The translations under genes and the position numbers were made by a program. The notes below the pieces were generated by a model, which was given only the letters and a program-made list of their open reading frames with translations, searched no databases and was not told where the DNA came from. Below are positions 21,503 to 21,559 of a DNA stretch of 64,000 nt, one piece after another (the stretch's first letter is position 1; every line of letters starts with the position of its first letter). This stretch comes from Quercus robur (Eukaryota > Streptophyta > Magnoliopsida > Fagales > Fagaceae). The stretch is taken from contig NC_065541.1 in the NCBI RefSeq assembly GCF_932294415.1, positions 56,708,290-56,772,289 on the forward strand, written 5' to 3'.

Positions 21503-21559
21503 AAGTTAAGCTGCAAAACCCATCAAAAAAAAAAAAAAAAAAAAAAGTTAAGCTGCAAA
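21503..21559 (+). mobile_element. Minimal LINE-tail insertion upstream of VPS24
   Basis: AAGTTAAGCTGCAAA occurs at 21503-21517 and 21545-21559. Between them is only ACCCATC followed by about 21 A. A duplicated target with an insert that is almost pure poly(A) tail fits target-primed reverse transcription that stopped after a few template bases. It lies about 270 bp upstream of the VPS24 start codon, in the likely promoter region. Confidence 0.8.

Follow-up and report, generated by a model that had tools for sequence, protein, structure and literature searches.

Insertion of LINEs by target-primed reverse transcription (TPRT) leaves target-site duplications (TSDs) of roughly 7–20 bp, and the L1 endonuclease nicks TTTT/AA-like sites. 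LINE integration has mostly been studied via long copies, and initiations that end early barely mark repeat annotation. According to PMC3747384, plant L1 LINEs carry poly(A) ends thought to be recognised in a relaxed fashion, poly(A)-ended plant SINEs are presumably mobilised by L1, and truncated LINE copies measure 100 to 1,000 bp. In PMC12016303 the median length of human L1 insertions is 394 bp for somatic and 1240 bp for germline events. Simple poly(A) insertions make up three cases among 48 listed human disease mutations, and a ~120-bp poly(T) in human NF1 is described as L1 endonuclease-dependent, its suggested source being an Alu, L1, or processed pseudogene that was severely truncated (PMC3219598).

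The insertion considered here lies at 21503–21559 of the window, by which we mean the whole 64,000-nt stretch of Quercus robur DNA that was analysed, and has the layout ATAACC / AAGTTAAGCTGCAAA / ACCCATC / A22 / (AA)GTTAAGCTGCAAA / CGACATCG. On the plus strand, the first TSD copy (AAGTTAAGCTGCAAA, 21503–21517) is repeated exactly over 15 bp at 21545–21559; between the copies stand a 7-nt insert read from the sequence as ACCCATC (21518–21524) and an A22 run (21525–21546) assigned as the poly(A) tail, whose last two A residues double as the AA of copy 2. The first-pass annotation had described an exact duplication of 13–15 bp around ACCCATC and an A-run, which is confirmed at 15 bp. The poly(A) adjoins the 5′ side of the second copy, as a LINE-mediated insertion by TPRT demands, and the nick context, CC|AAGT, is a weak match to a TTTT/AA-like L1-endonuclease site.

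The insertion precedes by 265 bp the ATG (21824) of a VPS24/CHMP3-like gene, the start of which was read at 21824–22960 (plus strand) as three exons with assumed splice sites. The peptide spliced from these exons matches Pfam Snf7 (2.1e-12), so the gene call behind the earlier placement upstream of VPS24 was correct. A VPS24 intron also contains, from 22992 to about 23560, an antisense L1-type LINE relic with the end ACTTATT-A9.

Chance as the source of the repeat is ruled out by permutation, by Markov-4 simulations, and by the genome count of the duplicated 13-mer, for which 27 matches are listed in the 786-Mb genome (42 contigs), the window copies being the only close pair among them. A genome search at the sensitivity used detected no paralog of the locus; six other matches cover ~30–35 bp around the A-run. 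When aligned as a diverged 22-bp tandem duplication the site is 19/22 identical, and ACCCATC agrees at 4/7 positions with the flank after copy 2 (CGACATC), a likeness that such a duplication would also yield; taken alone, the focal site could be of this kind. In a by-eye comparison of sister sites, the insert is unlike the flank after copy 2, with the exception of one in sampled region L015.

The same anatomy recurs within the window. A scan of A-runs of at least 6 nt with repeats of at least 12 nt returned seven rows with inserts of at most 60 nt, versus a mean of 0.07 in 15 Markov-4 simulations, and in four of them (21503, 29059, 38843, and 17395) the insert is 7 nt. The row at 17395–17437 continues with A7 plus three more bases, the row at 35300 has a 15-nt insert, and at least one row, at 10921, is a plain tandem duplication. 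Two plus-strand sister mini-insertions are found at 29059–29103 (TSD AATTTCTCTTCTCC, insert ACTTATC, A12) and 38843–38895 (TSD AACTCATTTGTTAATT, insert CCCCCTC, A16). On the minus strand, a probable sister at 13464–13521, read by eye, combines a 17-bp TSD with the insert CCTATC and the tail AAAA(TAA)n, its A-run falling below the length limit of the A-run scans; a weaker one at 33997–34064 has a 16-bp TSD with one mismatch, TTCAGG, and A30, and a possible one at 13316–13358 has TSD TATAATAAAGTT, insert CTTCTAAC, and A9 followed by GT. The sites at 13416–13462 (8-nt insert TTATTTTT) and 19605 (12-nt insert) could also be class members, while an A15 run at 14546 that follows TTAACCCATC lacks a TSD of at least 12 nt in the window scan and was set aside.

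Several neighbouring features of the window were noted alongside. Positions 331–350 carry ACTTATC-A12 without a recognisable TSD; this could be the end of a LINE or an old mini-insert whose repeats have decayed. C-runs recur close to the 5′ side of A-runs, as read on the A strand, at 21380–21413, 33784–33810 (C13-A14), 15421–15453, and 3202–3231, with further such pairs in sampled regions L163, L172, L158, and L027; they could be C-rich mini-inserts that have expanded, or a distinct type of composite microsatellite. A 34-bp direct repeat with a 7-nt spacer and without an A-run occupies 10766–10840.

Longer elements are present as well. A 5′-truncated L1-type LINE at 6676–8090 (minus strand) has a 17-bp TSD, AGTTAGTCTTTCATTGG, and the 3′ end TTATTACTTATC-A12, and its C-terminal peptide matches Pfam zf-RVT (1.3e-7). 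The mini-insert at 29059 is exactly the last 7 nt of this LINE (ACTTATC) plus A12. A SINE-like element at 28532–28734 (plus strand) is flanked by a 16-bp TSD and has the 3′ end CTCTCTC-A20; it is putatively of tRNA type (B-box-like). Among the window and the sampled regions, two SINE-like families of about 143–153 nt with TSDs and poly(A) were seen, with copies at 28532–28734 of the window, near position 2457 of L008, at L015:9428–9615, and at L025:1806–1982.

To sample A-runs without choice of motif, 20 random regions of 10 kb were taken, from which L010 and L013 were dropped as satellite-like; both are therefore absent from the direct-repeat pair count and from the two A-run scans (242 and 354 runs). 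Counting a second set of 20 regions of 2 kb, 40 random regions were sampled, and at least three (L010, L013, and L037) have the appearance of satellite arrays. With the window added, the sample amounts to 244 kb and contains 242 A-runs of at least 9 nt, ten of which have an exact upstream repeat of at least 11 nt within 70 nt; permuted flanks gave 5/14,472, i.e. 0.08 expected. Four of these ten matches come from the window, which was chosen because of the focal finding. The insert lengths are 7, 7, 7, 7, 8, 8, 9, 10, 30, and 55 nt, and C is the final base in all but one of the ten. For the 10-nt case (L015:4752) a better reading is a diverged duplication of 24 bp to which C and an A-run are added; in the 30-nt case (L011) a nearer 12-bp TSD copy lies inside, leaving TAACTTATC, 9 nt; and the 55-nt case (L024) has repeat-rich surroundings.

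A relaxed scan, to which eight further loci were added, covered 354 A-runs of at least 8 nt in 268 kb and gave a score of at least 16 in 30 of them versus 1.5 expected. It newly yielded TTCAGG-A30, GGTTTC-A10, and CCTAT-A8, together with SINE copies of 148–153 nt. The other rows (1, 8, 12, 30, 44, 55, 62, 64, 64, 67, 116, and 216–280 nt) were set aside, mostly as tandem repeats; those of 30–116 nt, intermediate between mini-inserts and SINE copies, are read as tandem repeats, except for the 30, which is read as a 9-nt insert. A further 40 kb of random regions, judged by reading, held mini-inserts at 0/21 A-runs of at least 9 nt, and a single A7 run there, whose tail is interrupted, is a mini-insert (TGCTT, 17-bp TSD, L036).

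The pattern C-A14 occurs at 13,182 genome sites versus 8267 for the reversed pattern, a control count by which such sites are not unusual in themselves. Among the first 20 of the 13,182 sites, all with a preceding C by design, five have a TSD (0.09 expected from permutation), and their inserts were read as TCCTCC, ATTCCTC, TTTAACC, CTTTC, and TCTTTC; for the TCCTCC site the script's minimum reading is 2 nt, reached by extension across one mismatch. A-runs outside the motif samples thus also display the mini-insert class, mostly with inserts of 5–9 nt.

ACTTATC-A12 occurs 1425 times in the genome versus 66 for the reversed string, and 80 sites were read from the first 89 listed, nine being skipped, most of them lying in clusters. 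A TSD score of at least 11 was reached at 31 of the 80, versus 0.64 with permuted flanks, and 19 of those 31 leave at most 8 nt (0.03 expected); the remaining 12 leave 9, 10, 11, 15, 20, 24, 24, 25, 32, 43, 52, and 87 nt. A stricter count gives 30 with a TSD, 19 of them short. Many sister inserts are identical to a LINE 3′ end. Where no TSD is near, TT precedes the motif at 37/50 sites, as in the LINE, and many of these sites have a LINE-like 3′ UTR by eye.

The focal motif, ACCCATC-A12, occurs 56 times versus 18 for the reversed string. Twelve of the first 20 sites have a TSD (0.03 permuted), ten with inserts of 6–8 nt (0.0 permuted) and the other two with 30 and 83 nt; the stricter count is 11 with a TSD and ten short. 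Insert lengths are minimum readings, and motif searches judge inserts below 6 nt unfairly; on this basis the two motifs together have 14 sites at 6 nt and 11 at 7 nt, lengths that are indistinguishable at some sites because an A follows copy 2, and the class falls off above about 7 nt. Two near-identical sites counted separately, L116 and L117 (C1:34.99 and 35.01 Mb), have near-identical flanks around one TSD-flanked insert; the tail is A12 in the one and A24 in the second, suggesting a change of tail length after insertion.

TSD length was read in a set of 34 members (31 of 100 fetched sites and three in the window), with the boundary forced at 7 nt and a score of at least 10; three of the members, L058, L095, and L108, clearly fit lengths of 4, 43, and 9 better. 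With 8–23 bp allowed, the TSDs run from 10 to 22 bp and 26/34 fall at 14–17 bp, a narrow stagger that points to an endonuclease product and would be unexpected if random breaks had been filled in. In 28/34 members the TSD begins with A, and T or C stands just before the TSD in 24/34; the leading A residues, and in part the preceding T or C, are weak evidence for an L1-type nick because they overlap the tail. In the 244-kb sample the A-run lies beside copy 2 in 21 repeat pairs and beside the other copy, as a mirror image, in five; in the 242-run scan this polarity is 10 to 3.

Empty sites were sought by querying 14 further sites against roughly 0.3 Mb of sampled sequence, in which 11 of the 14 queries had no match beyond themselves. 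For L009:4896 both flanks matched and the junction did not, for L024/L017 the match starts at the TSD edge, and one query, L009:6046, gave a useful match. This sister insert (L009:6046–6095) has ACTTAGAATTATT around AAATTCAGC-A14-T. In its paralog at L009:2976–3145, one ACTTAGAATTAT copy runs directly into sequence that aligns as the downstream flank, with no A-run; an AT-microsatellite beside the junction is also shorter there.

TPRT best fits the TSD length, the polarity of the A-run, the LINE 3′-end 7-mers in sister sites, and the one empty-site paralog, and we assign a probability of about 0.85 to a TPRT origin of the focal insertion and its class. In the proposed course, a plant L1-type LINE endonuclease would nick the bottom strand, and a polyadenylated RNA, from a LINE or another transcript, would anneal through its poly(A) tail to the T-ended primer. 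Reverse transcription would then pass through the tail into the 3′ UTR, copy about 7 nt of it, and end there instead of proceeding for hundreds of bases. The top strand would be cut about 15 nt away, and fill-in and joining would give the order TSD, 7 nt, poly(A), TSD. The stop may occur inside the reverse transcriptase complex, for instance at the moment when the cleft has just released the poly(A):oligo(T) hybrid and with it a hold that depends on poly(A). That an early stop of reverse transcription accounts for the short length is, in our estimate, an even bet.

The first-pass annotation had seen a near-empty LINE insertion made by aborted TPRT. TSDs, polarity, LINE ends in sister sites, and the empty sister site support TPRT, but a LINE template is unproven, since only one of the 20 ACCCATC-A12 sites (L137) has a LINE-like 3′ UTR upstream by eye. 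On this count a LINE family ending in ACCCATC was rejected as the sole source, and the focal template may be another polyadenylated RNA. The pyrimidine-rich inserts are diverse, which suggests more than one template, and the excess of ACTTATC would make LINE RNA the favoured one. The same annotation had noted that repeat maskers overlook such events. A reading as a rare accident does not hold: the anatomy recurs in the window, at random A-runs, in both motif samples, and in the C-A14 sample, and the insertion belongs to a large class with inserts mostly of 5–9 nt and a mode of 6–7. Recurrence in the sampled regions makes stopping at this point look like a regular event.

A broader proposal, which we hold tentatively and at slightly less than even odds, is that plant L1 reverse transcriptase has a discrete early checkpoint, at which many initiations end about one cleft length (6–7 nt) past the poly(A). 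The genome would then carry some ten thousand scars, which would have seeded a share of its A-microsatellites and would record the 3′ ends of the RNAs touched. The figure is extrapolated from about four clear cases in 240 kb of random regions, the window being left out, and from 5/20 of the 13,182 C-A14 sites. Given a class of scars with such a sharp length, an assembly by itself would be enough to count how often and at what point the reaction fails. The class would also be a source of A-rich microsatellites and of small insertions near promoters in plants, and would allow a listing of the RNAs on which the LINE machinery has primed.

Within TPRT, the strongest rival holds that the short copy is full length and that its template is a very short RNA of ~7 nt plus poly(A), such as a decay fragment protected by LINE protein. 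This would account for a sharp length across different 7-mers. However, TSD-flanked inserts of 9–52 nt also occur, as a leaky early stop predicts, and we know of no such short template RNAs; we consider this unlikely, though still deserving some weight. It is distinctly less probable that the template was pure poly(A) and that the seven bases are non-templated additions made by the reverse transcriptase before a strand jump. The insert sequences are indeed diverse, and purine-rich as cDNA, but random addition would not yield ACTTATC, the LINE 3′ end, nearly so often.

Outside TPRT, patch-mediated repair of a double-strand break could have filled in a staggered break with filler that by chance consisted of seven bases and an A-run. 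Direct repeats that are short and have no A-run are indeed frequent, with 140 non-array pairs in 244 kb, and the window holds 27 repeat pairs of at least 13 nt versus 0.05 expected, satellite-like and A-run cases included; L015:4752 also suits a duplication. However, filler in such repair has no strand polarity and repeat lengths are broad, and neither describes this class: the A-run favours the copy-2 side, TSD lengths bunch at 14–17 bp, and inserts reproduce a LINE 3′ terminus. We judge patch repair very improbable here. An assembly artefact at the homopolymer merits almost no credence, for although A-run length is uncheckable without reads, some 30 separate sites repeat the anatomy with different TSDs, and an artefact would have no reason to pick LINE 3′ ends.

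No description of a 5–9 nt class was found in the open-licence literature searched, PMC2837659 (abstract and outline) included, which argues only weakly for novelty. What is new here is the discrete, frequent class of ~7 nt; the single focal case is ordinary. Patch-mediated tandem duplications in plants share with the class short direct repeats around filler DNA, and neither poly(A) polarity nor a LINE 3′ end is expected of them. Poly(A)-ended plant SINEs share the TSD and the poly(A), but the SINE copies found here have about 143–153 nt before the tail, unlike the mini-inserts. Human poly(A)/poly(T) insertions, of which the NF1 case is the example, likewise consist of a homopolymer inserted by L1 endonuclease-dependent retrotransposition, but the NF1 run is much longer, and the excerpted text of PMC3219598 mentions no fixed short 5′ remnant. 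With 5′-truncated L1 LINE insertions the class shares a TSD of ~15 bp, a poly(A) next to copy 2, and, in sister sites, LINE 3′ sequence; those insertions extend over hundreds to thousands of nucleotides, whereas the inserts of this class measure 5–9 nt.
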